From a virus: DNA of 22,727 bases. A program made the translations under genes and the position numbers. This document shows, one piece after another, positions 6,329-22,721 of this stretch (position 1 is the first letter of the stretch; each line of letters opens with the position of its first letter). The stretch spans positions 1 to 22,727 of IMG/VR virus record IMGVR_UViG_3300047564_006443. One strand, written 5' to 3'. The notes below the pieces were generated by a model that was not told the origin of the DNA, did not search any database, and saw only the letters and a program-made list of their open reading frames with translations.

Positions 6329-7600
6329 ATGAAATTACCCAGAGTAGCCATTCTGATGCTTCGCGGGGTGGAGGGGTGTGGGGTGAGTACCTACGCCCGT
6401 CACTTCAAGGCATTTTTCGATCAGAACGGACAAATATGCAATATTTTTGCCCTAAACCTCAATATCGGTAGGCCAGATACCTCAACAGACATAGATGTTA
6501 AGGTGTTTTGCTTTCATGAAGCTGATGAGTTGGTACGTAAGATCAATAAAGAGTATGATTTGGCTCTGGTTTTTAGCGTACCAGCAAAAAATGCCCCAAA
6601 AGTTATTACTGAAAATTACGTAGAGTACTTAATTGAGCCTCTCTCCATTCCGAAGTGGATGGTTAATCACGATCATCATTTTCTCAGTGTTAGTCGTAAT
6701 GCTGACTACGCTAATGCTATTGAAGCATGCGATGGTTTGCTTTGTCACTCCCTCGTAGAGACTAGATCCGGGTTTATCTCATGGTTGAAGAAGAGGAACA
6801 TCTCAAAAGTTACGAAGAAGATGGACGTTTTCTTCCATGTTCCATTTGTAGAGGATTTGATCGATCTGGATAGGGGGGATAGGAGTAAAAGACTTATCAA
6901 CGCGGCAAGAGCGGTGGCGTGGAAGCGTGGCAGTGTAGTCCTGAACCTTCACAATGCCCTGGCCGACCGTGGGTTTATCACTGAAATGATCGGGTTTGAA
7001 AGATCCATTGCAGGCTACTCCCAACTTAAAAACTACGAAGACAAACTTAAGTGGTTTACTGATAAGCATTTTTACAAACCCATCAAGGGCCCGTCGGCCT
7101 TCTCTTCTGCCAGAATAAATAATGAACTATTTGACTACATTGATAGCACTGGGCAAAACCACGACTTGATGTATGTGATCGGCTCTTATGACTATAAGCG
7201 TGGGTTACAACGCATTGCCAACAGCGCTTTTGCCACTCACCCACGCTCTTTCGAGCATAATAATCTTGACTATGGAAACAATTTCGAGTATCAAGGCCTA
7301 GAAGCTGCTTTACTTGCCATTCCCATCTTCCATCGGCACTTTCTGTCGACAGTAACACTGCCCAACTCCGCGACTACGTTAGCACAAACCGGGATTTTTC
7401 TTTCTATAGATGATGATAATCGCCATCTTAAGAACGGAGGGCCACAAGTCCTTGAGCCGGAGAAGTTTGTTGGTCTACTCGAGGAGATTTGGAATGACGC
7501 CTCCGAATACTATCGCATGAGAAAAAATTCTGTTGACTTAATCAGATCCACCTACTCGTCTCATGTAATAGTTCCTCAACTTCTTTCCTCTTTGTCATGA
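6329..7600 (+). CDS. T4 Agt-like (GT-B fold) alpha-glucosyltransferase
   Basis: The 423-residue protein matches the T4 alpha-glucosyltransferase layout as I remember it: an N-terminal RGVEGCGVSTYAR (12-24) where T4 has RGLEGCGV, then FSVPA (82-86) where T4 has NSVPA, then NHDHHFLSVSRN (113-124) where T4 has QHDHSVLSLRRN, followed by the A-C-D-G-L-L-C-H-S strand. The C-terminal half carries the GT-B donor-site pattern (EYQGLEAALLAIPIF). T4 Agt moves glucose from UDP-glucose to 5-hydroxymethylcytosine in DNA, protecting it from host nucleases. Whether this phage makes hydroxymethylcytosine is not visible here (no dCMP hydroxymethylase in the window), so another acceptor base or target is possible. 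It lies just behind the topoisomerase gene, with a TATATT box at 6321-6326. Confidence 0.75.
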   Translation: MKLPRVAILMLRGVEGCGVSTYARHFKAFFDQNGQICNIFALNLNIGRPDTSTDIDVKVFCFHEADELVRKINKEYDLALVFSVPAKNAPKVITENYVEYLIEPLSIPKWMVNHDHHFLSVSRNADYANAIEACDGLLCHSLVETRSGFISWLKKRNISKVTKKMDVFFHVPFVEDLIDLDRGDRSKRLINAARAVAWKRGSVVLNLHNALADRGFITEMIGFERSIAGYSQLKNYEDKLKWFTDKHFYKPIKGPSAFSSARINNELFDYIDSTGQNHDLMYVIGSYDYKRGLQRIANSAFATHPRSFEHNNLDYGNNFEYQGLEAALLAIPIFHRHFLSTVTLPNSATTLAQTGIFLSIDDDNRHLKNGGPQVLEPEKFVGLLEEIWNDASEYYRMRKNSVDLIRSTYSSHVIVPQLLSSLS

Positions 7601-7723: not shown

Positions 7724-7953
7724 ATGACTGTATCCATTGCCCCAAGTCGGCAAGATAATAGCTGGGAACAATTCTGTAACTGGGTAACTTCAACTAACAA
7801 TCGTCTGTATGTTGGTTGGTTCGGAGTCCTTATGATTCCTTGCCTTCTCGCTGCGACTACTTGCTTCATTATCGCATTCATCGGTGCTCCCCCAGTGGAC
7901 ATTGATGGTATTCGTGAACCAGTTGCTGGTTCTCTTATGTACGGCAACAACAT
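7724..7953 (+). CDS. psbA: psbA exon 1
   Basis: Encodes residues 1-76 and the first two bases of codon 77. The last recognisable words are MYGNN-I; the uninterrupted D1 family reads NNIISG across this point. Confidence 0.9.
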
Positions 7954-10900
7954 CTAGATGGTGTCACTTACAAGTAATTGTAAGAAGTAAATTGGGTGAA
8001 TTGCTGGAAAGGGAAGACCACCCCAATCAGCAGCCAAGTCCAGAGTACACTCTGGAAAGGTTCAACGACTACCTGAGGAGTTTAGTCTCCTTAATAACAG
8101 GATTAAGCGCCCAACTCCTTTTATGTTATAATTAGTGTAAAAGGATGAAGATATAGTCTAACTTCCATGATAACTTACTTAGCAATAAGACTTTCTAATG
8201 GTGATTATTATTGGGGTTCTACCGCAATGACTCTCAAAAAGAGAGAACGATTTCATAGAAAGTTTAAGGGAAACGATCACTTCCATAATTCTCTAAAAAA
8301 ATATCCAGATGATTGGATATTTCTGGAAATCTTCAATGAAGAAACAGATAGTAGAGAAACTGAAAAGAAAATGCTTTCTTTACATTACAATAGAAGTGGA
8401 TGCCTTAACTTATCAAATGAACCTCAGGGTTGGGGAACTGGTGAAAATCATGCCAGAAATAAAAATCCTCAATATTGGGAACATCTAAAAGGTGAAGGAC
8501 ATCCAAGAAAAGTTAATCCAGAAAAATGGAATAATTCTATTGGAGATAATCATTGGACTAGAAATGTTGATAAGAGTAAATTGGTTTCTCTTGGATACAA
8601 TTTTCCCAAAATGTCTGGTGATAAAAATCATATGAAAAATCCTGATGTTGCTAAGAAGATTTCTAAGTGGAGACAAGGAAAAAATATTGAACCTTGGTTA
8701 GAGGCAGATATCATATATCAAATATGGTTATCTTGTAGAAAACCTAGTCCATCTGCAAAAGCATGGGCAAAGAAAACAAACTTTCCTTATTATTCACTTA
8801 GGTCTATGGTCTCTTCATTTTTAGAAGGTTGGATACCTTATGAGGATGAAGAATGGATTTCGTGGAAGGCATCAGTGGTGCCGTTGTTCCTTCTTCTAAT
8901 GCTATCGGACTTCACTTCTATCCTATCTGGGAAGCAGCAAGTCTTGATGAATGGCTCTACAATGGTGGACCTTTCCAACTTGTTGTATTTCACTTCCTCA
9001 TTGGCATCTATGCTTATATGGGTCGTGAATGGGAACTCTCATACCGTCAACCCTAGGCGGCTCTTGAAGGAAACTTCAAGATAAACATCGGGTGAATTGC
9101 TGGAAACTATGGACATTTACGACGAATTTATATCATACCTTCAAACAATTGAACCTAGTGACGGTGAATATTACGAAAAACATCGTATTATTCCTGGACA
9201 TGAAGGAGGATTATATGAAGATGGAAATGTAGTTAAATGCACATTTGAAAATCACAAATTTGCTCATTACTATAGGTGGTTAGCAAAATCTTCTGAGAAA
9301 GATAAATATTCTTGGAGAAAGATGTGTGGTTGGAAAGATGTAGATGCCCGTCGTGAAATGGCTTCTTATGCTGGGAAACTTGGTGGTCGTAAGACCAATC
9401 AAATCCATAAAGAACGTGGAACTAATTTTTATAGTTCGGAGTTTGGTAGAAATGCTTCACTCAAACGCTCAAAAAAAGATAAACAAAACTGGATGAATGA
9501 GTTAAACCAACAACTTACATTTGAACAAAGGTCAAATGCAGGTAAAGTTGGCGCTCAAAAAACTCTTCAATTTCAAAGAGAAACTAATACAGGTTTCTTT
9601 AACCCTAAAGCAACTTTACAAAAACTTGCTAATCTTAAACGGTGGGGTATAAAAATTGATGGAGTGAGAATTCCATTTAAAAGTTTATCTTCAGATTTCG
9701 TTGAATATCATATCAACGAAGGAACCAATAAGGAGTATTCTAATTCATAAAATCAGCAGCCAAGCTAACCACGAACTTGGTTAGAAGGTTCAGAGACTAG
9801 TCGGTTTTCCAAGCGTGGAATATAATACGACATTAGCTCCCGACACCTAAACTCTTATGAGTAAGGTGAAGATATAGTCCACCACCACTTTTAGTGGTGC
9901 TAGGTATACGTCCTTGGATTTGTGTTGCTTACAGCGCACCTGTTGCTGCTGCGAGTGCCGTGTTCCTTGTGTATCCCTTCGGTCAAGGTAGTTTTAGTGA
10001 TGCTATGCCTCTGGGTATCAGCGGAACCTTCAACTACATGTTGGTGTTCCAGGCTGAGCACAATATCCTTATGCACCCATTCCATATGCTTGGAGTTGCT
10101 GGTGTATTTGGTGGGGCATTTGCTGGAGCAATGCATAGGGAACTGTGCCCTTGCTGAGTAATCAGTAAGTGAAAATCGGGTGAACTGCTGGAACCCTAAG
10201 TTACTAAAATGTTACTTGACTTATGTAAATAACTCTGGTAACATAAACTGTATGGCTAACAAGTACTTATCTTTTATTGAGGAATGTAAAAATAAAACAT
10301 ATCCTCCCAATACTTATCTTGAAGACCACCATATTGTCCCAAAACATGATGGTGGTCTTGATAATCCAGAAAACCTTACTTCATTATCTTTTGACGACCA
10401 CATACTCGCACATAAAATAAGGTACGATGTATACGGTCAAGTTTATGACTTAGCAGCATATAACTTGATGTGTGGTTTTGATAGTGAAGGTTGGAGACTT
10501 CTTAGAGTTGAAGGTGCTTATAAAACACACGAAGCATTAAGATTATCCAAGAAAAATTTTTGGAGTTCTGATTATCAAAAAGAAATGTCTGCTCGTTCTG
10601 TAAAGTCTGAGTATGCTATGAAAATGAGAAGTATTGGTGGCAAAGTAGGAGGTAAAAATAGAAACAAAAATGTTGCTATTACTTCTACTGATAAGTATAT
10701 TTTCTCTTATGACAAAGTTGAAACGGTTTGTATAATCAACTGCGAAACTGGTGGAGAAGTTTTAGAAGAACTACAAAAAATAGTTCCCAATCAAAACTTC
10801 AAAAGAGTAACTCCTCTACTAAAAGGTCAAAGAAAAAATGCTTACAGTTGGTCTTGTAAAAAACTTTAGTAATATGGCAATCAGCATCCAAGTCCTAGAT

Positions 10901-11463
10901 ACATCTAGGAAAGGTTCAGAGACTACCTGAGGGGTTCAGTCCCCTTAATAACAGGTTTAAGTGCCCGACAACCTAATAAAATAGGTTGATGATATAGTCC
11001 ACTCCTTATGAAAATAAGGTATAATAGGGGTTCCCTCGTAACCTCCTCCCTGGTGCGTGAAACCACCGAGAGCGAGTCCCAGAACTACGGCTATAAGTTC
11101 GGTCAAGAGGAAGAGACTTATAACATTGTCGCTGCTCATGGGTATTTTGGTCGTCTTATTTTCCAATATGCGTCCTTTAATAACTCCCGTTCACTACACT
11201 TCTTCCTTGCCGCTTGGCCAGTGATTGGTATTTGGTTCACTGCTCTTGGTGTTAGCACCATGGCCTTCAACCTCAACGGTTTCAACTTCAACCAGTCACT
11301 GATTGATAGCCAGAACCGTGTCATCCCTACTTGGGCTGATATCCTCAACCGTGCTGGTCTGGGCATGGAGGTGATGCATGAGCGTAACGCTCACAACTTC
11401 CCTCTCGACCTTGCCAGCGTAGAAGCAACTCCTGTTGCTCTTACTGCTCCAACAATTGGTTGA
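7724..11463 (+). CDS. psbA: Photosystem II D1 protein, psbA, four exons split by three group I introns
   Basis: Joining 7724-7953, 8870-9047, 9900-10136 and 11029-11463 gives one intact reading frame of 359 residues, the usual D1 length. D1 is the photosystem II reaction-centre subunit that binds P680, pheophytin, QB and the manganese cluster in the thylakoid membrane. Key residues are present: Tyr161 (AYSAPVAA), Asp170 (SFSDAMPLG), His190 ([10 protein letters not shown]), His215, His332-Glu333 (VMHERN), His337, Asp342 and the C-terminal processing site after Ala344. Introns sit in codon 77 (phase 2), after Arg136 and directly after the His215 codon (a ligand of the non-haem iron). Each 5' exon ends in T and each intron ends in G, as group I splicing requires. 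Without splicing, D1 would stop in the first codon of intron 1. The gene ends in a strong terminator. Phage D1 replaces the fast-turning host D1 during infection. Confidence 0.93.
7954..8869 (+). ncRNA. Group I intron 1 of psbA
   Basis: This is a self-splicing group I intron, 916 bases. The conserved core elements appear in order: P (GGGTGAATTGCTGGAA, about 7994-8009), Q (AATCAGCAGCCAAG, 8024-8037), R (GGTTCAACGACTA, about 8059-8071) and S (GAAGATATAGTC, about 8147-8158). Between R and S lies CCTGAGGAGTTTAGTCTCC, forming the extra P7.1/P7.2-type stem of group IA introns. The preceding exon base is T and the last intron base is G. The endonuclease gene is downstream of S, in the P9 region. Confidence 0.9.
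8167..9084 (+). CDS. GIY-YIG homing endonuclease with NUMOD3-like repeats, in psbA intron 1
   Basis: The frame is 305 codons from ATG 8167. The GIY-YIG domain is near the N-terminus: ITYLAIRL (2-9) and YYWGST (14-19) as the two motif strands, Arg28 in the RERFHRK helix, a Glu in SRETEKKM (about 62-69) and Asn81 in CLNLSNE. It is followed by about four NUMOD3-type units ([35 protein letters not shown]), a DNA-binding module usual in intron endonucleases. Such enzymes cut intronless psbA to spread the intron. Only about 235 residues lie in the intron; the frame then runs through exon 2 in another frame and stops 37 bases into intron 2, so the full protein can come only from unspliced RNA. There is no clear ribosome binding site. 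The composition is AT-rich, unlike the exons. Confidence 0.85.
8870..9047 (+). CDS. psbA: psbA exon 2
   Basis: Completes codon 77 and encodes residues 78-136 ([13 protein letters not shown] to REWELSYR). It is overprinted in another frame by the C-terminus of the GIY-YIG gene. Confidence 0.9.
9048..9899 (+). ncRNA. Group I intron 2 of psbA
   Basis: The intron is 852 bases. Core elements are P (GGGTGAATTGCTGGAA, about 9090-9105), Q (AATCAGCAGCCAAG, about 9751-9764), R (GGTTCAGAGACTA, about 9787-9799) and S (GAAGATATAGTCC, about 9868-9880). The whole endonuclease gene sits between P and Q, in the P5 loop, unlike intron 1. The 5' exon ends CGT and the intron ends in G before CTA. Confidence 0.9.
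9109..9750 (+). CDS. HNH homing endonuclease in psbA intron 2
   Basis: The protein is 213 residues from ATG 9109; an in-frame TTG at 9097 lies inside the P element of the intron core and is less likely as a start. The HNH motif is near the N-terminus: [12 protein letters not shown] (about 23-34), Asn40, then [11 protein letters not shown] (about 47-57). Two similar basic units, [10 protein letters not shown] and [10 protein letters not shown], follow and are probably DNA-binding. It would cut intron-less psbA at or near the intron 2 site and so drive homing. It is a paralogue of the intron 3 enzyme by its shared HNH spacing, but not of the GIY-YIG enzyme. It is read in the same direction as psbA, from unspliced or excised intron RNA. 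Confidence 0.88.
   Translation: MDIYDEFISYLQTIEPSDGEYYEKHRIIPGHEGGLYEDGNVVKCTFENHKFAHYYRWLAKSSEKDKYSWRKMCGWKDVDARREMASYAGKLGGRKTNQIHKERGTNFYSSEFGRNASLKRSKKDKQNWMNELNQQLTFEQRSNAGKVGAQKTLQFQRETNTGFFNPKATLQKLANLKRWGIKIDGVRIPFKSLSSDFVEYHINEGTNKEYSNS
9900..10136 (+). CDS. psbA: psbA exon 3
   Basis: Encodes residues 137-215 ([14 protein letters not shown] to GAMH), including Tyr161, Asp170, His190, His198 and His215. It is the most function-dense part of D1. Confidence 0.9.
10137..11028 (+). ncRNA. Group I intron 3 of psbA
   Basis: The intron is 892 bases. Core elements are P (GGGTGAACTGCTGGAA, about 10178-10193), Q (AATCAGCATCCAAG, about 10879-10892), R (GGTTCAGAGACTA, about 10913-10925) and S (GATGATATAGTCC, about 10988-11000). 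The segment after R is almost the same as in intron 1 (CCTTAATAACAGG then TTAAG), pointing to a common recent origin. The endonuclease gene sits between P and Q. The intron ends in G before the GGT of exon 4. Confidence 0.9.
10252..10869 (+). CDS. HNH homing endonuclease in psbA intron 3
   Basis: The protein is 205 residues from ATG 10252. An in-frame GTG at 10180 would start inside the P element of the intron and is rejected. The HNH motif is [12 protein letters not shown] (about 24-35), Asn41, then DDHILAH (about 48-54). A basic middle ([14 protein letters not shown]) and a C-terminal segment that ends [13 protein letters not shown] follow; the latter resembles the NUMOD1-type helix-turn-helix found at the end of T4-type HNH intron enzymes. 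Its layout matches the intron 2 enzyme. It would cleave intronless psbA close to the His215 codon. No clear Shine-Dalgarno sequence is seen. Confidence 0.87.
   Translation: MANKYLSFIEECKNKTYPPNTYLEDHHIVPKHDGGLDNPENLTSLSFDDHILAHKIRYDVYGQVYDLAAYNLMCGFDSEGWRLLRVEGAYKTHEALRLSKKNFWSSDYQKEMSARSVKSEYAMKMRSIGGKVGGKNRNKNVAITSTDKYIFSYDKVETVCIINCETGGEVLEELQKIVPNQNFKRVTPLLKGQRKNAYSWSCKKL
11029..11463 (+). CDS. psbA: psbA exon 4
   Basis: Encodes residues 216-359 ([14 protein letters not shown] to the C-terminus), including the ligands His332, Glu333, His337 and Asp342 and the C-terminal processing site. Confidence 0.9.
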
Positions 11464-11488
11464 TATAAAGCCAAATAATAGCATAATA

Positions 11489-11521
11489 AAGAGACCTCAA
11501 ACGGAGGGGTCTCTTTTTTTT
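11489..11521 (+). terminator. Rho-independent terminator of psbA
   Basis: The stem AGAGACC pairs with GGTCTCT around a CTC/GAG inner pair and an AAAC loop, directly followed by a run of nine or more T. It is a classic strong terminator 25 bases after the psbA stop. Confidence 0.9.
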
Positions 11522-11584: not shown

Positions 11585-12952
11585 ATGAGAAACAGAAGAC
11601 GTTATAGAAGGCACTGCGAGAATTACAAAAAAACAGAAGAACTGGTGTATCTTCCGCAGGTTCTTGTGGACTATAATGTTGCGGCAATTCCAACCCGAGA
11701 CACCATACCCTACGGAACTCAGGCAGTCTGGAATGGGCAGAATCTTTCAAGTCTTGGGAATATTGCGTCAAGTGCTTATGCCTTTGTAATTGATTCTGGA
11801 GTATTGGATATCACTGGAGACTTGAATTTAAATACTCAATGGTCTAGAAGTTGGATTCTGGGTCAATCTCCATTTGTTGATGGTAATGGTCACGGGACTC
11901 ACGTTGCCGGAACGATTGGAGCACTTGCAAATAACAGTGGGATTGTTGGAGTTGCTCCAGGAGCACAAATAGTCTCACTAAAGGTTTTCAATAACAGTGG
12001 TTCGGCAACTCTCTCTTCGATTATAGACGCAGTTAATTATGCAGCAGATATAATCATCACCAACCGACTCGATTTGTCAAAGGTTGTGATTAATATGAGT
12101 CTTGGTGGAGTTCTTAATTCTGCCTTGAATGCCGCAATTCTTCGCGCAGCAAACTTAGGAATTCGGTTTACGATTGCAGCAGGAAATTCCGGCATCGATG
12201 CTGACACGACTTCTCCTGCAAGTGTAGGCACTCACCCAAACGTCTACACGGTCTCTGCAGTAGATTCAATGGGGGCTATGCCAGCGTGGTCGAACTGGGA
12301 CACTGTAACGCCCACAGACCCCTTAGACACAGTGGATTATGCGGCACCGGGAGTCGGTATAATGTCCTACTATAAGGCTGGATTACTTGCCTATCTCAGC
12401 GGGACTTCAATGGCAGCGCCTCATGTTGCGGGATTGCTTTTGATGGGGGAAGTAACTTCAACGGGAATGGCAACTCCATTCTATGCTGGAACTGCAGACC
12501 CTTTTGCGATTCTGAGTAATCTACCCACAGTTGCAAATCAAACTCTCTGGGGGACTGAGGCAAACGATACCATCATTGGTGGGCCGGGTAATGATACAAT
12601 TGCCGGTGTCTCTCTTACAGGTTCAATTTCAGGGCAAATTGATATTCTTATTGGAAGCACTGGAGCAGATACTTTTATTCTTGCAGATTCTCGTGGAGCA
12701 TTCTACAACGATGGAGTGGACGGAACTCTAGGGACAAGTGATTATGCCCTAATTCAAAACTTTCAATCTGGAGTAGATAAACTACAACTACTGGCAGGTA
12801 ATTACTTTACCACTAGAGTCGGAGATAATTTGAATATCTACTGGGACCAAAATGCAAATGGGAGATTTGAGACAATTCTCTCAAGTAGCGATGAGTTAGT
12901 AGCAGTTATTCAAACCCCGACTTTTTCTTTCCATGACGTTATCTTCTATTAA
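11585..12952 (+). CDS. Subtilisin-like serine protease (S8) with RTX-like calcium-binding tail
   Basis: The protein is 455 residues. The full subtilase catalytic set is present: Asp70 in AFVIDSGV, His103 in DGNGHGTHVAG, oxyanion Asn201 in AAGNSG and Ser275 in LSGTSMAAPHVAG. After the catalytic domain come glycine/aspartate repeats (ANDTIIGGPGNDTIAG, about 326-341, and GSTGADTFILADS) typical of hemolysin-type RTX calcium-binding segments, then YALIQNFQSGVDKLQL, the conserved strand that follows such repeats. No signal peptide is seen; the N-terminus is instead very basic (RNRRRYRRH). RTX proteins usually leave the cell through a type I exporter using a C-terminal signal, so export or a virion or lysis role are both open. 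It is a lone transcription unit between the psbA terminator and the small-gene run. It is unusual cargo for a phage and looks bacterial in origin (inference). Confidence 0.9.
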   Translation: MRNRRRYRRHCENYKKTEELVYLPQVLVDYNVAAIPTRDTIPYGTQAVWNGQNLSSLGNIASSAYAFVIDSGVLDITGDLNLNTQWSRSWILGQSPFVDGNGHGTHVAGTIGALANNSGIVGVAPGAQIVSLKVFNNSGSATLSSIIDAVNYAADIIITNRLDLSKVVINMSLGGVLNSALNAAILRAANLGIRFTIAAGNSGIDADTTSPASVGTHPNVYTVSAVDSMGAMPAWSNWDTVTPTDPLDTVDYAAPGVGIMSYYKAGLLAYLSGTSMAAPHVAGLLLMGEVTSTGMATPFYAGTADPFAILSNLPTVANQTLWGTEANDTIIGGPGNDTIAGVSLTGSISGQIDILIGSTGADTFILADSRGAFYNDGVDGTLGTSDYALIQNFQSGVDKLQLLAGNYFTTRVGDNLNIYWDQNANGRFETILSSSDELVAVIQTPTFSFHDVIFY

Positions 12953-18840: not shown

Positions 18841-18913
18841 GCGGAATTAACTCAGTTGGTAGAGTACCTTCCTTCCAAGTAGGATGTCAGGGGTTCGAGT
18901 CCCCTATTCCGCT
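18841..18913 (+). tRNA. tRNA-Gly(UCC)
   Basis: Acceptor GCGGAAT with ATTCCGC, D stem ACTC/GAGT, anticodon loop CTTCCAA (TCC), T arm AGGGG-TTCGAGT-CCCCT. A T-T mismatch is present in the anticodon stem. No CCA is encoded. It lies apart from the main array. Confidence 0.9.
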
Positions 18914-18914
18914 T

Positions 18915-18964
18915 GAGGATGTAGTTGCTAGGCAGATAGCCTAGAAAAACGCTTCCTCTTTTTT
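18915..18964 (+). terminator. Hairpin with T run between tRNA-Gly and porin gene
   Basis: The outer arms GAGGA and TCCTC enclose a perfect inner hairpin CTAGGC-AGATA-GCCTAG, followed by TTTTTT. It may end tRNA-Gly transcription in part or act as a leader element of the porin transcript; the porin ATG is 23 bases after the T run. Confidence 0.6.
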
Positions 18965-18987
18965 GTTCCAAACAATCTTAAGAAAAT

Positions 18988-19854
18988 ATGAAAAAGCTCA
19001 TCTCTGCAATTGGCGCTATTGGCGCAACTGGCCTAATTGCTCCAATGGTCGCGATGGCCGGGCCTCAGGGTCAGTTTTCGGACGTTCAGCCTACCAACTG
19101 GGCCTATCAGGCCATTATGAATCTGCGCAATCGTTATGGTTGCGCCGTGGGTTTCCCTGATGGTACCTTCCGTGCTGGTGCCCCGGCAACCCGTGCTGAA
19201 CTTGCCGCTCTGACCAACGCCTGTCTGGATGAAATCACCACGTACGCCGATGCTAGAGACGCGGCTATGGCCTCCGCTCTGCGTGCCGAAGTGGGCGCTG
19301 TTAGCAACCGCGTTACCAAACTCGAAGTAGTTGCCGCTGAGAAAGCCCAAGGCGTGGGTAACTATCTCGGTGCTGGTGTCATGCTGAATAAGCAAGGTGT
19401 TGAGGGTGGTGGGTATAGTGAAGATCGCGTTATTGCCGGGGGCACTGTTCAGGCCCGCTATGCAATTAACACGTTCTCCAACGAGAATGCCATCTCCATC
19501 CGTCCCTACGCCAACTTCGTTGCCGGTCCTAACTCGCAATTCGGAGCTGGTGGCGGTGCTCTTCTCTCCTATGACTTCTCAGTTGCCAAGCGGGAAGGTG
19601 TGAGTGCCGTTAACATTTACGCCGGGGCGGGTTACCAAGTCCCCTTTGTGAATGACACGCAAGCCAACTTCCAATCCGCCGTTGGTGAGAAGGGTCAAGT
19701 GGTGTTTGCCCTGGGCATCGAAGGTCGTCTGACCAACTCGCTTGTTGGTTTTGCCGATCTGAAATTCCCCACCACCAACGCTGGTGATAGTTACGGCGCC
19801 AGCGACGCCTCCTATTCCCCCGTGCTTACCACCGGTCTGGGATTCAAGTTCTGA
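18988..19854 (+). CDS. SLH-domain outer-membrane porin-like protein (host-derived type)
   Basis: The protein is 288 residues. A signal peptide (MKKLISAIGAIGATGLIAPM, cleavage likely after Ala24 in AMA-GP) is followed by one SLH domain (about 29-80: FSDVQPTNWAYQAIMNL, GFPDGTFRAGAPATRAELAA). A coiled-coil stretch follows (SNRVTKLEVVAAE), then beta-barrel-like alternating strands and a C-terminal GLGFKF, with a terminal Phe as in the BAM insertion signal. This is the plan of the cyanobacterial SLH-OprB outer-membrane proteins, but those are about 500 residues or more, so the barrel here is short (inference). Codon use is richer in G and C than in its neighbours, consistent with gain from a host. 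It could coat the infected cell's surface or block reinfection. It is followed by a terminator. Confidence 0.85.
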   Translation: MKKLISAIGAIGATGLIAPMVAMAGPQGQFSDVQPTNWAYQAIMNLRNRYGCAVGFPDGTFRAGAPATRAELAALTNACLDEITTYADARDAAMASALRAEVGAVSNRVTKLEVVAAEKAQGVGNYLGAGVMLNKQGVEGGGYSEDRVIAGGTVQARYAINTFSNENAISIRPYANFVAGPNSQFGAGGGALLSYDFSVAKREGVSAVNIYAGAGYQVPFVNDTQANFQSAVGEKGQVVFALGIEGRLTNSLVGFADLKFPTTNAGDSYGASDASYSPVLTTGLGFKF

Positions 19855-19881
19855 TCAGGGCCTCCTGACAAACTGACCATG

Positions 19882-19904
19882 GGGGTCCCAAAGACCCCTA
19901 TTTT
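19882..19904 (+). terminator. Probable terminator of the porin gene
   Basis: The stem GGGGTC-CCAAA-GACCCC is followed by TATTTTC, with a flanking CATG on both sides. The T run is imperfect. Confidence 0.65.
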
Positions 19905-19906
19905 CA

Positions 19907-19915
19907 TGGTAAAAT
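19907..19915 (+). promoter_or_regulatory. Extended -10 promoter of hli
   Basis: TG-G-TAAAAT directly behind the porin terminator, with a leader of about 24 bases to ATG 19946. No -35 is visible. Confidence 0.5.
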
Positions 19916-19945
19916 GATTAAGGAAATAAAAAGGTTCTTATCTCT

Positions 19946-20164
19946 ATGACGATTACGACTAATGAGCGCGGGCAACAAAACATGTTCGCAAAAGAACCTC
20001 AAATGTACATTGACCCTATCATCGAGGAACAAATGAGCAAAGAAGTTTACGAAACGCACAATGAACGAGCTGAAAAGCTCAATGGACGCCTGGCTATGAT
20101 CGGCGTTATGGCCGCAATCCTCAACTACGCCAGCACTGGGCAACTTATTCCAGGATTTTGGTGA
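19946..20164 (+). CDS. hli: High-light-inducible protein (Hli/SCP)
   Basis: The protein is 72 residues. The chlorophyll-binding helix HNERAEKLNGRLAMIGVMAA, continuing to ILNY (about 38-61), carries the family signature E-x-x-N-G-R-x-A-M, with Glu43, Asn46 and Arg48. The C-terminus QLIPGFW is typical of cyanophage Hlis. Hli proteins sit in the thylakoid membrane, bind chlorophyll and carotenoids, and protect photosystem II assembly and quench light, which fits the nearby psbA. It has its own extended -10 promoter and is followed by a structured non-coding stretch. Confidence 0.93.
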   Translation: MTITTNERGQQNMFAKEPQMYIDPIIEEQMSKEVYETHNERAEKLNGRLAMIGVMAAILNYASTGQLIPGFW

Positions 20165-20388
20165 AGTGTTTATAGATTAGTATGACTAACTTCCTGTATA
20201 TTACATTTGAGAATCCCTCCTCACCATCGAGAGATAAGGTGTCGGTCCCTCTTATTTGCTAATACAGGAAACTCTATAAGCAAACTACGAGAGGGGCAGA
20301 GGTCAAAAAGACTTCTCCCCTCTTTTCTTTGCGATAGACGGCTTATCAACTGGCCACCAGGCCATTCCCAAGGCCTCCTATCCATGGT
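20165..20388 (+). ncRNA. Non-coding stretch with predicted RNA structure and terminator
   Basis: No gene is seen between hli and the tRNA array. TTCCTGTAT (20191-20199) pairs with ATACAGGAA (20262-20270), enclosing a smaller hairpin (CACC/GGTG around 20222-20242). A strong terminator follows (20289-20330). An intact outer stem of nine pairs plus a terminator suggests a small RNA or the 3' end of the hli transcript. Confidence 0.4.
20289..20330 (+). terminator. Strong rho-independent terminator after hli
   Basis: GAGAGGGG (20289-20296) pairs with CCCCTC (20317-20322), extended by AGA/TCT and GTC/GAC with an AAAAA loop, followed by TTTTCTTT. It ends the hli transcript. Confidence 0.85.
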
Positions 20389-20393
20389 ATATT
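20385..20393 (+). promoter_or_regulatory. Extended -10 promoter of the tRNA array
   Basis: TG-G-TATATT with no -35. The transcription start would be near 20400. It is the only promoter-like element seen before the array. Confidence 0.45.
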
Positions 20394-20399
20394 AGTCTC

Positions 20400-20444
20400 A
20401 TGGGTGAGGGAGACGGACCTCCGGCTCTCAACCCCGAACCTTGA
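20400..20444 (+). CDS. Possible 14-codon leaderless peptide
   Basis: ATG at 20400 lies exactly where the TG-G-TATATT promoter would start transcription. The frame reads MGEGDGPPALNPEP then TGA. It overlaps a hairpin (GGAG...CTCC around 20409-20433). It may simply be chance; the coincidence of start and ATG is the only reason to list it. Confidence 0.2.
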   Translation: MGEGDGPPALNPEP

Positions 20445-20468
20445 AAACTTAATAAATTACCATTTTAA

Positions 20469-20543
20469 GGGGTATTAACTCAGTCTGGTTAGAGTATCCG
20501 GCTTTTAACCGGTTAGTCCTCGGTTCAAATCCGAGATACCCCA
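20469..20543 (+). tRNA. tRNA-Lys(UUU)
   Basis: GGGGTAT with ATACCCC, loop CTTTTAA (TTT), T arm CTCGG-TTCAAAT-CCGAG. Confidence 0.9.
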
Positions 20544-20553
20544 TTGATTTTAT

Positions 20554-20644
20554 GGGAGAGTGGCTACTGTTGGCAATATGTGTAGCAACGGTCTGTAAAA
20601 CCGTCACATCGGAACCATCGGGGGTTCAATTCCCTCCTCTCTCA
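20554..20644 (+). tRNA. tRNA-Tyr(GUA), class II
   Basis: GGGAGAG with CTCTCTC, anticodon stem ACGGT/ACCGT, loop CTGTAAA (GTA), long variable arm, T arm GGGGG-TTCAATT-CCCTC. Confidence 0.88.
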
Positions 20645-20645
20645 T

Positions 20646-20725
<80 letters not shown>

Positions 20726-20726
20726 T

Positions 20727-20799
20727 GGGGTCTTAGCTCAGTTGGTAGAGCTCTTGCTTTGCAAGCAAGCTGTCAGGGGTTCGAGTCCCCTAGATTCCA
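20727..20799 (+). tRNA. tRNA-Ala(UGC)
   Basis: GGGGTCT with AGATTCC (two G-T pairs), stem CTTGC/GCAAG, loop TTTGCAA (TGC), T arm AGGGG-TTCGAGT-CCCCT. Confidence 0.9.
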
Positions 20800-20802
20800 T
20801 TT

Positions 20803-20876
20803 GACCCATTAGTGTAGCGGTCTATCACGCCACCCTGTCACGGTGGAGAACACGGGTTCAAATCCCGTATGGGTCG
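20803..20876 (+). tRNA. tRNA-Asp(GUC)
   Basis: GACCCAT with ATGGGTC, stem CCACC/GGTGG, loop CTGTCAC (GTC), T arm ACGGG-TTCAAAT-CCCGT. Confidence 0.9.
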
Positions 20877-21035
20877 TCGGTGCTCAGCAATCCCAGTGCC
20901 TATCAGCTGAGCATGTCGGAATAGGCTTGTGCCGGGATGCCATTTGTAGGTTTCCGTAGTCCCGGAGCGAGATAAAGGGTAAACCTGCTATGCCACCTTG
21001 CGCCGGAAAGATAAACCGGGATGCTGGTGGTGTAT
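20877..21035 (+). ncRNA. Structured spacer in tRNA array, element A
   Basis: No tRNA or gene. It contains perfect inverted repeats TGCTCAGC/GCTGAGCA, CCGGGA/TCCCGG and AGGTTT/AAACCT. It shares with element B (21474-21610) the ordered blocks GGTTT, AAGGGT, TATGCCAC and AAACCGG. A structured RNA is suspected, without a known family. Confidence 0.4.
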
Positions 21036-21118
21036 GGAGAGGGTCCGGTTGGTCGAGGGCGCAGTCTTGAAAACTGTTGGGTGTAAAAGCCTCGGGGGTT
21101 CGAGTCCCTTCTTCTCCG
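21036..21118 (+). tRNA. tRNA-Ser(UGA)
   Basis: Class II. GGAGAGG with CTTCTCC, stem GCAGT/ACTGT, loop CTTGAAA (TGA), long variable arm, T arm ending CCCTT. Confidence 0.88.
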
Positions 21119-21120
21119 CT

Positions 21121-21162
21121 TGAATACGTAACTAGTCGTTGTTACGCCATAGAACGTATTCA
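21121..21162 (+). repeat. Spacer hairpin between tRNA-Ser and tRNA-Trp
   Basis: TGAATACGT (21121-21129) and ACGTATTCA (21154-21162) are perfect inverted arms, with a nested GTAAC/GTTAC pair. Confidence 0.6.
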
Positions 21163-21166
21163 TCCT

Positions 21167-21239
21167 GTCAAATTAGCTCAACTGGTAGAGCAGTGGTCTC
21201 CAAAACCAAAGGTTGTAGGTTCGAGTCCTATATTTGGCG
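21167..21239 (+). tRNA. tRNA-Trp(CCA)
   Basis: GTCAAAT with ATTTGGC, D stem GCTC/GAGC, loop CTCCAAA (CCA), T arm GTAGG-TTCGAGT-CCTAT. Confidence 0.9.
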
Positions 21240-21243
21240 CTGA

Positions 21244-21299
21244 GCCTATGTCTCTGTGCAGGCAATTTTATTCTGTAAGACCTGATCTCACACATAGGC
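21244..21299 (+). repeat. Spacer hairpin between tRNA-Trp and tRNA-Asn
   Basis: GCCTATGT (21244-21251) and ACATAGGC (21292-21299) are perfect inverted arms. Confidence 0.6.
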
Positions 21300-21305
21300 C
21301 TTCAA

Positions 21306-21377
21306 TGGGATGTAGTTCAGCGGTAGAACGCCTGGCTGTTAACCAGGTTGTCGCAGGTTCGATCCCTGCCGTCCCAG
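21306..21377 (+). tRNA. tRNA-Asn(GUU)
   Basis: TGGGATG with CGTCCCA, stem CCTGG/CCAGG, loop CTGTTAA (GTT), T arm GCAGG-TTCGATC-CCTGC. Confidence 0.9.
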
Positions 21378-21397
21378 TTGCTTCATAGAAGCATTTA

Positions 21398-21473
21398 CGG
21401 GATATCGCCTAATTTGGTCATGGCACCTGCTTTGGGAGCAGGAATAATCTTGGTTCAAATCCAAGTATCCCGA
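21398..21473 (+). tRNA. tRNA-Pro(UGG)
   Basis: CGGGATA with TATCCCG, stem CCTGC/GCAGG, loop TTTGGGA (TGG), T arm CTTGG-TTCAAAT-CCAAG. A small hairpin TGCTTC-ATA-GAAGCA precedes it. Confidence 0.9.
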
Positions 21474-21610
21474 TCGGCGCCACAAGCGCCAGGGGCCTCC
21501 AAGGAACGGAGGTTTAAACGAAGGGTCCCGTATGCCACATCGTAGAACGACGAAACCGGCTTCAGTATAAGTTGCAAGGTCGACGATCGTAGGTGGATAC
21601 CCTCGCCCAC
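21474..21610 (+). ncRNA. Structured spacer in tRNA array, element B
   Basis: No tRNA or gene. Hairpins GGCGC-CACAA-GCGCC and CCTCC/GGAGG are followed by AAGGGT (21521-21526), TATGCCAC (21531-21538) and AAACCGG (21553-21559), the same ordered blocks as in element A. Confidence 0.4.
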
Positions 21611-21682
21611 GCGCCGGTAGTCTATTGGTAAAGACACCCAGACAATGGAGTTGGATAGTCGGTTCGATTCCGGCACGGCGCA
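21611..21682 (+). tRNA. tRNA-like gene with degenerate anticodon arm
   Basis: The acceptor (GCGCCGG with ACGGCGC, one mismatch), D arm (GTCT/AGAC) and T arm (GTCGG-TTCGATT-CCGGC) are all good. The anticodon region reads CCCAGACAATGGAGTTGG and forms no standard five-pair stem with T33. The best partial fit is CCAGA/GTTGG with loop CAATGGA, so the identity cannot be assigned. Probably decayed. Confidence 0.6.
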
Positions 21683-21686
21683 CTGA

Positions 21687-21760
21687 GCCCCGGTAGCTCA
21701 GTTGTATAGAGCATCCGCCTTCTAAGCGGTTTGTCGTTGGTTAGAGTCCAACCCGGGGTG
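21687..21760 (+). tRNA. tRNA-Arg(UCU)
   Basis: GCCCCGG with CCGGGGT, stem TCCGC/GCGGT, loop CTTCTAA (TCT), T arm GTTGG-TTAGAGT-CCAAC. CCA is encoded at 21761-21763, directly before the next tRNA. Confidence 0.9.
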
Positions 21761-21763
21761 CCA

Positions 21764-21837
21764 GGGAACATAGCTCCAAGTGGTAGAGCACATGTTTGAA
21801 GAACATGGTGTTATCGGTTCGAGTCCGATTGTTCCCA
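21764..21837 (+). tRNA. tRNA-Phe(GAA)
   Basis: GGGAACA with TGTTCCC, stem CATGT/ACATG, loop TTGAAGA (GAA), T arm ATCGG-TTCGAGT-CCGAT. Confidence 0.9.
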
Positions 21838-22024
21838 TTGAAAATCTTAGGATTTTCAAATATCTAGATGAAGTAGATTCTGAAGTAGGCTAAACAAACC
21901 CAGCCTAGGGTTGACTATTCATTTAGATTAAATTACTAGGTATAGGAAGAACGAGGTTGCAAACTCAATCTTCTGAATGTGAAATGGAAAGGGCAAATGC
22001 GAATGACCTTTCACCTAGTTTTAA
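21838..22024 (+). other. 187-nt spacer with hairpins
   Basis: No gene or tRNA is seen. It holds TTGAAAATC-TTAG-GATTTTCAA, TAGGCT/AGCCTA and a longer hairpin GAAGA-AC-GAG with CTC-AA-TCTTC. Structured but without recognised function. Confidence 0.4.
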
Positions 22025-22097
22025 TGGAACGTAGCTCAGTTGGTAGAGCACACGGCTGATAACCGTGCGGTCACGAGTTCAAATCTCGTTGTTCCAA
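22025..22097 (+). tRNA. tRNA-Ile(GAU)
   Basis: TGGAACG with TGTTCCA, stem CACGG/CCGTG, loop CTGATAA (GAT), T arm ACGAG-TTCAAAT-CTCGT. Confidence 0.9.
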
Positions 22098-22206
22098 TCT
22101 GGTGAACCTTAGTCCATCTGAGGAAAAAAGTCCTTGATCTAGTCAATCTTAAAGACAAGTATTCCGACCAAGAGAATAAAGGTAGGAGGATGACTACCTC
22201 CTTTAA
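22098..22206 (+). other. 109-nt spacer with hairpins
   Basis: No gene or tRNA. TATTC/GAATA and AAAGGTAG-GAGGATGA-CTACC with a following TCCTTT can pair. Confidence 0.35.
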
Positions 22207-22279
22207 AGTCTCATCGACTAGCGGTCTAGGTCGCAACCCCCTCAAGGTTGAAACACGGGTTCAAATCCCGTTGGGACTA
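22207..22279 (+). tRNA. tRNA-Glu(CUC) with C33
   Basis: AGTCTCA with TGGGACT, stem CAACC/GGTTG, loop CCCTCAA (CTC), T arm ACGGG-TTCAAAT-CCCGT. Position 33, nearly always U, is C here, so the anticodon reading carries some doubt. Confidence 0.75.
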
Positions 22280-22282
22280 TAT

Positions 22283-22371
22283 GGGAAAGCACCTTGGTGG
22301 TGGGCGCGACGGCGTTAGAGGCAGTTCGATTCTGTCCCTTGGCAATGGTGGTTCGATTCCACCTTTTCCCA
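22283..22371 (+). tRNA. Class II tRNA, best read as Leu(UAG)
   Basis: GGGAAAG with TTTTCCC and T arm GGTGG-TTCGATT-CCACC are clear. The anticodon stem ACGGC/GCAGT has one G-A mismatch around loop GTTAGAG (TAG), followed by a long variable arm of about 20 bases. The variable region also contains a second T-arm-like word (GGCAG-TTCGATT-CTGTC), so the folding is uncertain. Confidence 0.65.
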
Positions 22372-22376
22372 AACTT

Positions 22377-22463
22377 GGAAGTGTGGCAGAGTGGGTTAAT
22401 GCGGAGTCCTGCTAAGACTTTGAGGGGTAAAACCCTCCGTTGGTTCAAATCCAACCACTTCCG
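22377..22463 (+). tRNA. tRNA-Ser(GCU)
   Basis: Class II. GGAAGTG with CACTTCC, stem GAGTC/GACTT, loop CTGCTAA (GCT), variable arm GAGGGG/CCCTC, T arm GTTGG-TTCAAAT-CCAAC. Confidence 0.9.
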
Positions 22464-22489
22464 TTGAGAGAATTCTTACTCTCATATAT

Positions 22490-22554
22490 GTGCTGCTAGT
22501 TTAAGTAAAACACCGGGGTAATTCCTGGAGATATGGTATCAAGTCCACATGCAC
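22490..22554 (+). pseudogene. Possible decayed tRNA remnant
   Basis: GTGC and GCAC pair at the ends. Between them are a D-arm-like GTTT-AAGTA-AAAC, an anticodon-like CCGGG-GTAATT-CCTGG with a 6-base loop, and a T-arm-like TGG-TATCAAGT-CCA. Loop lengths are wrong and the acceptor has only four pairs, so it is at best a remnant. Confidence 0.3.
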
Positions 22555-22561
22555 TCAAACT

Positions 22562-22646
22562 GGAGAATTGTCCGAGTGGTTTATGGTGAGATCTTGGAAA
22601 GGTCTTGTGTGTAACAACACCAGAGGTTCGAATCCTCTATTCTCCG
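22562..22646 (+). tRNA. tRNA-Ser(GGA)
   Basis: Class II. GGAGAAT with ATTCTCC, stem AGATC/GGTCT, loop TTGGAAA (GGA), T arm AGAGG-TTCGAAT-CCTCT. CCA is encoded at 22647-22649. Confidence 0.9.
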
Positions 22647-22649
22647 CCA

Positions 22650-22721
22650 GGCAGTATAGCTGAGTGGTAAAGCACGTCATTCATAACGACGCGATCATGG
22701 GTTCGATTCCCATTACTGCCA
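22650..22721 (+). tRNA. Elongator tRNA-Met or tRNA-Ile2 (CAU)
   Basis: GGCAGTA with TACTGCC, loop TTCATAA (CAT), T arm ATGGG-TTCGATT-CCCAT. G1 pairs with C72, so it is not an initiator. Lysidine-modified Ile2 cannot be excluded. Confidence 0.85.

Follow-up and report, generated by a model that had tools for sequence, protein, structure and literature searches.

The IMG/VR virus record IMGVR_UViG_3300047564_006443 comprises 22,727 nucleotides, and this whole stretch is called the window in the following. At positions 7724-11463 it carries a psbA gene which is divided into four exons by three group I introns, and each of these introns accommodates a homing endonuclease gene (HEG; Table 1). A splice search, which was independent of an earlier note on this DNA and required a U before each intron and a terminal G, returned exactly three introns in this gene, and after joining of the exons codons 1-359 of D1 were free of stops. 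The introns are inserted after nt 230 (codon 77), 408 (Arg136) and 645 (His215) of psbA, and sites are named by these numbers.

The rejoined D1 possesses Y161, D170, E189, H190, H198, H215, H272, H332, E333, H337, D342 and A344, which we take to be ligands or the processing site. The splice search and these twelve residues bear out the earlier note in its description of four exons yielding a 359-residue D1 with the key ligands, and in its three insertion points. The introns make up 2660 of the 3740 nt of the locus, as had been stated there, and the T before and the G at the end of each intron were likewise found, though both were conditions of the splice search. When the joined exons were compared with the intronless phage psbA of contig L077, a single-piece alignment was obtained (84.0% over 1043 columns). 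It contained two gap columns (nt 629 and 634), none of them at the junctions 230, 408 and 645. All three insertion points had been described there as slowly changing codons. Among 64 intronless phage psbA genes the local nucleotide conservation reaches the 99th percentile at site 230 and the 69th at site 645, but only the 23rd at site 408, so that this description is true only in part.

Table 1. Exons, introns, endonuclease genes and further features of the psbA locus (window positions).
Feature	Positions	Strand	Basis
psbA exon 1 (codons 1-76, then two bases of codon 77)	7724..7953	+	splice mapping
Group I intron 1, site 230, 916 nt, HEG in L9	7954..8869	+	RF00028 88.6 bits, helices P1-P10
Intron 1, P9 5' strand CUUCCA, last base is first base of HEG1 ATG	8162..8167	+	
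HEG1, GIY-YIG homing endonuclease open reading frame	8167..9084	+	PF01541 26.3 bits; stop compared with 10 relatives
Intron 1, P9 3' strand UGGAAG, immediately followed by the terminal G (8869)	8863..8868	+	
psbA exon 2	8870..9047	+	splice mapping
Group I intron 2, site 408, 852 nt, HEG in L5	9048..9899	+	RF00028 31.6 bits (below gathering), helices, covariation
HEG2, 213-aa HNH-type endonuclease	9109..9750	+	phrog_655 40 bits (longer TTG reading); invariant H, N, H
psbA exon 3	9900..10136	+	splice mapping
Group I intron 3, site 645, 892 nt, HEG in L5	10137..11028	+	RF00028 56.6 bits, P10 of 8 pairs
HEG3, 205-aa HNH endonuclease, ATG start as in relatives	10252..10869	+	PF01844 25.3 bits (longer GTG reading)
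psbA exon 4 and stop	11029..11463	+	splice mapping
Terminator-like hairpin with T run, 3' of psbA	11488..11516	+	consensus match only

Group I cores and intron-borne endonucleases

The Rfam model RF00028 (gathering threshold 50), proposed as a check in the earlier note, was passed by introns 1 and 3 and was not reached by intron 2. The helices were picked by eye and their pairing was verified afterwards. In each intron P1, P2, P3, P4, P6, P6a, P7, P7.1, P7.2, P8, P9 and P10 were found. The listed helices pair fully, save one mismatch in P5 of intron 3; for intron 2 no P5 is listed. P1 is closed by a U.G pair at the splice site in all three introns.

Covariation was analyzed in 26 aligned phage psbA introns; the three of the window were included after removal of their open reading frames (ORFs). 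The underlying 40-pair structure (P3-P8) was drawn on intron 3 of the window and favours this intron somewhat. Across the 26 introns 92.5% of the structure cells pair, in comparison to 30-44% when one strand was slid by 1-3 columns. Neither the covariation score nor the number of pairs changed on both sides was matched in any of 500 shuffles. P3, which forms the core pseudoknot with P7, is paired to 100%, with both sides changed in three of its five pairs. P7.1 and P7.2 are each paired to 81% and occur in all three window introns. The location of these two helices between P7 and P3 is, as we assume, a feature of subgroup IA1, and they point to introns of the IA1 type. Helices and covariation together support the group I core that had been read from the sequence for all three introns. 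Furthermore, in a set of 85 phage psbA introns (see below) P1 and P10 formed a mean of 9.8 pairs with their own exons versus 5.0 with exons of other sites, and only 0.5% of the swapped controls reached the score of intron 3. Among those listed of the 85, P1 was not found for two introns (L025 at 548 and L033 at 549).

The HEG ORFs of introns 2 and 3 are placed between the P and Q elements, which corresponds to L5. An HNH domain was detected in HEG3 above the Pfam cut-off (21.4 bits), and 22 loci in IMG/VR encode relatives with 90-96% identity. HEG2 matches phrog_655, annotated as 'homing endonuclease', and shares 27% identity with HEG3 over 147 columns; H25, N40 and H49 are invariant in a family alignment with 14 members. 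HNH-family HEGs at five psbA sites (276, 317, 408, 645 and 649) are homologous. Sequence searches of the PDB with HEG1 and HEG3 gave nothing significant.

HEG1 is located in L9 of intron 1, its start codon overlapping the 5' strand of P9, and contains a GIY-YIG domain (Pfam cut-off 22.6 bits). Intron 1 does not contain the whole gene: the reading frame continues over the 3' splice site (8869) and exon 2 to a stop at 9084 in intron 2, 215 nt past the splice site. Ten of the eleven HEG1 relatives hold the gene end, and all ten stop within 17 nt of exon 2, at a TAG made by the psbA codons GTA-GT in the exon flank CATCTCTGGTGCCGTAGT. The nine of these loci with a whole intron represent seven distinct intron sequences. 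In the window the flank is CATCAGTGGTGCCGTTGTT, with a different exon codon; because the stop held by the relatives is thereby removed, the frame runs on. GTA followed by GT was found in 3 of 71 intronless alleles by pattern matching, and the full CATCTCTGGTGCCGTAGT flank in none of the 71. As the flank accompanies the intron in all ten relatives and is absent from these 71 intronless alleles, co-conversion seems to carry it along with the intron, and the window allele seems to have lost it or never received it. A complete endonuclease had been assigned to each intron (GIY-YIG, HNH and HNH). The GIY-YIG type of HEG1 and the HNH type of HEG3 are supported and HEG2 is probably of the HNH type, but HEG1 extends beyond its intron.

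It is very likely that the three elements are mobile group I introns of the subgroup-IA1 type, each combining a ribozyme with a HEG in a peripheral loop. This agrees with the earlier note, and sites 230, 408 and 645 are occupied in relatives, too. In the transcript, each intron would fold on P1, formed by the exon end and a guide sequence with the U.G pair at the splice site, and on P10, and would excise itself in two guanosine-initiated steps, yielding a normal D1 message. The endonucleases would be made from unspliced RNA only. If a co-infecting phage brought in a psbA lacking the intron in question, the endonuclease would cut that gene, and the intron plus exon flanks would be copied into it during repair. 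With 18 sites, up to nine introns in one gene, near-identical cores at two sites of one gene and an HNH family found at five sites, psbA of this cyanophage pool is a crowded landing zone for introns.

Several observations weigh against this interpretation. Intron 2 scores only 31.6 bits (E 2e-5) with RF00028, probably because the HEG ORF in L5 splits the model. The count of further pair types in the alignment does not exceed that of shuffled data, being reached in 251 of 500 shuffles, and P7, although paired to 100%, is invariant and carries no covariation. Taken singly, the P1 and P10 pairing of introns 1 and 2 is unexceptional, as 22% and 13% of the swapped controls equal them. HEG2 has no match in Pfam or NCBIfam, and its predicted structure is poor overall (predicted local distance difference test 61) and has no PDB match at E ≤0.001; weak fold matches above this value include HNH domains. 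HEG1, which lacks the stop common to 10 of 10 relatives, may be altered or decaying. The missing stop, together with a decayed HEG in a relative (reduced to 38 aa in the L024 intron at site 570), would fit introns which are decayed, non-splicing insertions in a psbA pseudogene. This appears very improbable, since D1 is open over 359 codons with all twelve checked residues present, and the core helices are intact.

Introns in related phage psbA genes

IMG/VR was searched with HEG1, HEG2 and HEG3 (11, 2 and 22 loci) and with a pattern for site 408 (7 loci). Merged per contig, these loci gave 35 contigs with psbA segments, to which the Synechococcus phages S-SRM01 and S-CBWM1, phage S-PM2 and the window were added. 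The search started from site 408 and the three HEGs of the window, which biases the number of introns counted at each site. Splice predictions lacking R and S motifs were excluded; most of them fell near codons 10-20, ahead of variable N-termini. Of the 85 distinct introns with both motifs, 83 lie at 18 sites (179, 230, 276, 317, 408, 499, 548, 556, 570, 645, 649, 750, 890, 989, 992, 1002, 1008 and 1011). Two mis-mapped ones were left out (549 in L033, a frameshifted assembly, and 1004 in L057, where two introns were merged). Sites 276, 499, 649 and 989 are represented by one intron each, the window sites by 8 (230), 8 (408) and 18 (645) distinct sequences including those of the window. A comparison of the base at position -1 was set aside; it is circular for occupied alleles, since the splice search demands a T.

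Three introns in one psbA had been considered exceptional, and only single psbA introns were thought to be on record. Neither statement could be upheld. Three introns are present in S-SRM01, five in L006 and nine in L024 (IMGVR_UViG_3300042987_001812), and for S-CBWM1 two are already annotated in GenBank. The psbA of L024 consists of ten exons, the smallest of 14 and 19 nt, with an open D1 that is identical to the window D1 at 329 of 359 positions. On the other hand, no psbA intron was found in the best 80 of at least 600 stretches matched by exon 4, of which 68 reach the 5' end. This query, which prefers loci close to the window with exon 4 in one piece, gives no census, but it shows that intronless phage psbA alleles are common.

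Other contigs carry these introns at identical sites, which also bears on the origin of the window. Being a fragment (IMG/VR record, 22,727 bases), it might be an assembly chimera or a piece of plastid DNA. This is extremely improbable in view of these contigs and of the genes surrounding psbA, which belong to phage families (alpha-glucosyltransferase, topoisomerase II, S-adenosylmethionine decarboxylase and Hli).

Comparison of intron cores between different genes gave a median identity of 85% when the site was the same (243 pairs); between different sites within one gene it was 57% (94 pairs). In L028 and L027, however, the cores at 548 and 645 share 99.2% and 95.1% identity. In the core tree, from which nine of the 85 introns are missing because no core could be extracted, sites 548, 556, 645, 179, 750 and 1002 interleave, with many weak nodes. 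The near-identical cores and the interleaved tree suggest that introns moved between sites of one gene or that gene conversion occurred.

Other endonuclease genes were observed in or near these psbA genes. LAGLIDADG endonucleases are encoded in introns of L005 (5270-5668, site 548, 36.1 bits) and L010 (3828-4226, site 556, 34.6 bits). The remnant in L024 (3451-3810) is all that is left of an endonuclease and resembles the C-terminus of the HEG in L012. Free-standing ORFs 3' of psbA in L013 (2526-3071) and L024 (from 6028) resemble, by eye, F-CphI-type Endo VII nucleases.

Insertion sites shared with chloroplast psbA

Algal positions refer to Mesostigma or Ulva psbA and are assumed to equal the phage numbering, as standard D1 numbering implies. 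The algal set used comprises 11 sites, a subset of the algal psbA sites. Oedogonium cardiacum psbA has ten group I introns at 179, 276, 384, 408, 525, 548, 570, 645, 754 and 898 (PMC2442088, Table 4). Ulva adds 750 and has 179 again (PMC10151680), and introns were also described at 750 in Nephroselmis astigmatica (PMC4194372) and at 525 in Scherffelia (PMC4743939).

The comparison with chloroplast sites suggested in the earlier note revealed seven exact-nucleotide matches (179, 276, 408, 548, 570, 645 and 750), that is, 7 of the 11 algal and 7 of the 18 phage sites. The window sites 408 and 645 are among them, while 230 is outside the algal list. By chance, 0.19 shared sites would be expected over all nucleotides (P 3e-11) and 0.33 for positions with T in at least 5% of the intronless alleles (P 1e-9). 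For positions with T in at least 50%, four sites are shared versus 0.28 expected (P 5e-5). With the algal set shifted, none of the 30 other offsets tried within 15 nt gave more than one match.

Endonuclease type and loop agree between phage and alga at 179, 276, 408 and 548. At 179, phage L006 has a LAGLIDADG ORF in L9, whose Pfam score of 22.3 bits is just under the cut-off. HNH ORFs in L5 are present at 276 in S-SRM01, at 408 in the window and at 548 in L052 (HNH_2, below the cut-off). Two further phage introns at 548 differ: the HNH_2-type ORF of L055 was not placed in L5 by the position rule (HNH_2 scores of L052 and L055, 19.5 and 19.6 bits), and the LAGLIDADG ORF of L005 lies in another loop.

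From the sites and endonucleases we lean, if only slightly, towards the view that cyanophage and green-algal chloroplast psbA introns form one shared mobile pool. Group I introns would then have crossed between cyanobacterial viruses and chloroplasts, and phage psbA, with up to nine introns, may be a reservoir for endonuclease retargeting. Convergence might be another explanation: independent endonucleases could have picked the same conserved D1 codons, given that D1 is highly conserved and that group I introns need a U before the site. The excess is indeed weaker when the positions are chosen more strictly. Where T occurs in at least 90% of the alleles, 188 positions remain and 2 sites are shared (P 0.006); where T occurs in at least 50% and local conservation exceeds the median, 165 positions remain and 3 sites are shared (P 0.002). 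We regard convergence as possible but rather doubtful, because the agreement falls from seven sites to at most one at any other shift within 15 nt, and because endonuclease type and loop coincide at the four sites named above.

Some findings argue against sharing with plastids. At 570 and 645 the phage introns contain an ORF, whereas the Oedogonium table lists none (PMC2442088). At 750 a T5orf172 ORF in Ulva (PMC10151680) contrasts with three phage introns of 209-248 nt. It had also been predicted that phages carry introns at algal-only sites, but the IMG/VR patterns for 525, 898 and 384 gave 0, 1 and 0 stretches, the single one (L059) without psbA, so that no phage psbA matched, which convergence would likewise explain; these patterns need an exact S motif near the exon, and introns with another S motif or an L9 ORF would escape them. 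The site-645 pattern was applied to bacterial genome contigs as well. It gave seven stretches (L045-L051, three of them Chlorobiaceae) in which an intron S motif is followed by a site-645-like pattern; none contains D1, and by that pattern no 645 intron was found.

The shared-pool interpretation concerns the part of these results that is worth following, namely an intron-crowded cyanophage psbA pool with exact chloroplast sites; the three introns of the window are no record. In the open-access literature, as far as its text was available and the S-PM2 (2004), S-CBWM1 (2018) and F-CphI (2009) papers aside, S-CBWM1 and S-SRM01 were the only phages for which a psbA with several introns was found to be stated, and no statement was found on site sharing between phages and plastids. 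psbA is a well-studied viral photosynthesis gene. Its 18 sites and up to nine introns may cause it to be overlooked or annotated as broken in phage genomes, as the case of S-SRM01 illustrates, and light-responsive splicing, which has been reported for S-PM2, may be of wider importance. Endonuclease retargeting might be traceable inside one gene. If the site sharing reflects common descent, it would reveal a path by which introns pass between bacterial viruses and plastids.

Neighbouring genes and comparison with known systems

Directly upstream of psbA an alpha-glucosyltransferase is encoded (phrog_2888, 328 bits; window 6329-7597, +), and directly downstream a subtilase with an RTX-type repeat (11585-12949, +). 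The product of 18988-19851 (+) has a signal-like N-terminus as well as an S-layer homology domain (PF00395, 30.7 bits) and presumably resembles cyanobacterial porins. Sixteen tRNA genes were predicted by ARAGORN (18841-22721, +).

A phage gene with three group I introns is known from Staphylococcus phage Twort (orf142), which is another gene in another host. Outside phages, the chloroplast psbA of Oedogonium cardiacum, compared by insertion site, shares sites 408 and 645 with the window and has an HNH HEG in L5 at 408 (PMC2442088). No phage intron was observed at its sites 384, 525, 754 and 898 (754 without a pattern search).

Among the cyanophages, S-PM2 differs from the window in its single psbA intron of 212 nt at 1002 and in F-CphI, which is free-standing and encoded outside the intron. 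The core of this intron matches intron 1 of the window at 79% over 53% of the query and intron 3 at 81% over 80%. The intron is reported to be spliced during infection, and introns of the S-PM2 type to be widespread in marine metagenomes (PMC5931967). In S-CBWM1 (MG450654) psbA has annotated group I introns and one HEG homologous to HEG2 and HEG3, as in the window, but two introns only, at 649 (mapped here; two bases later in GenBank) and 1011.

S-SRM01 (MW015081) was published with two partial psbA genes and one suspected intron (PMC8557907). Its introns are at other sites than those of the window (276, 750 and 1002), and two of them are without a HEG. Like the window, its psbA is interrupted by three group I introns, the first of which carries an HNH HEG in L5, and the 359-codon D1 is intact when spliced.

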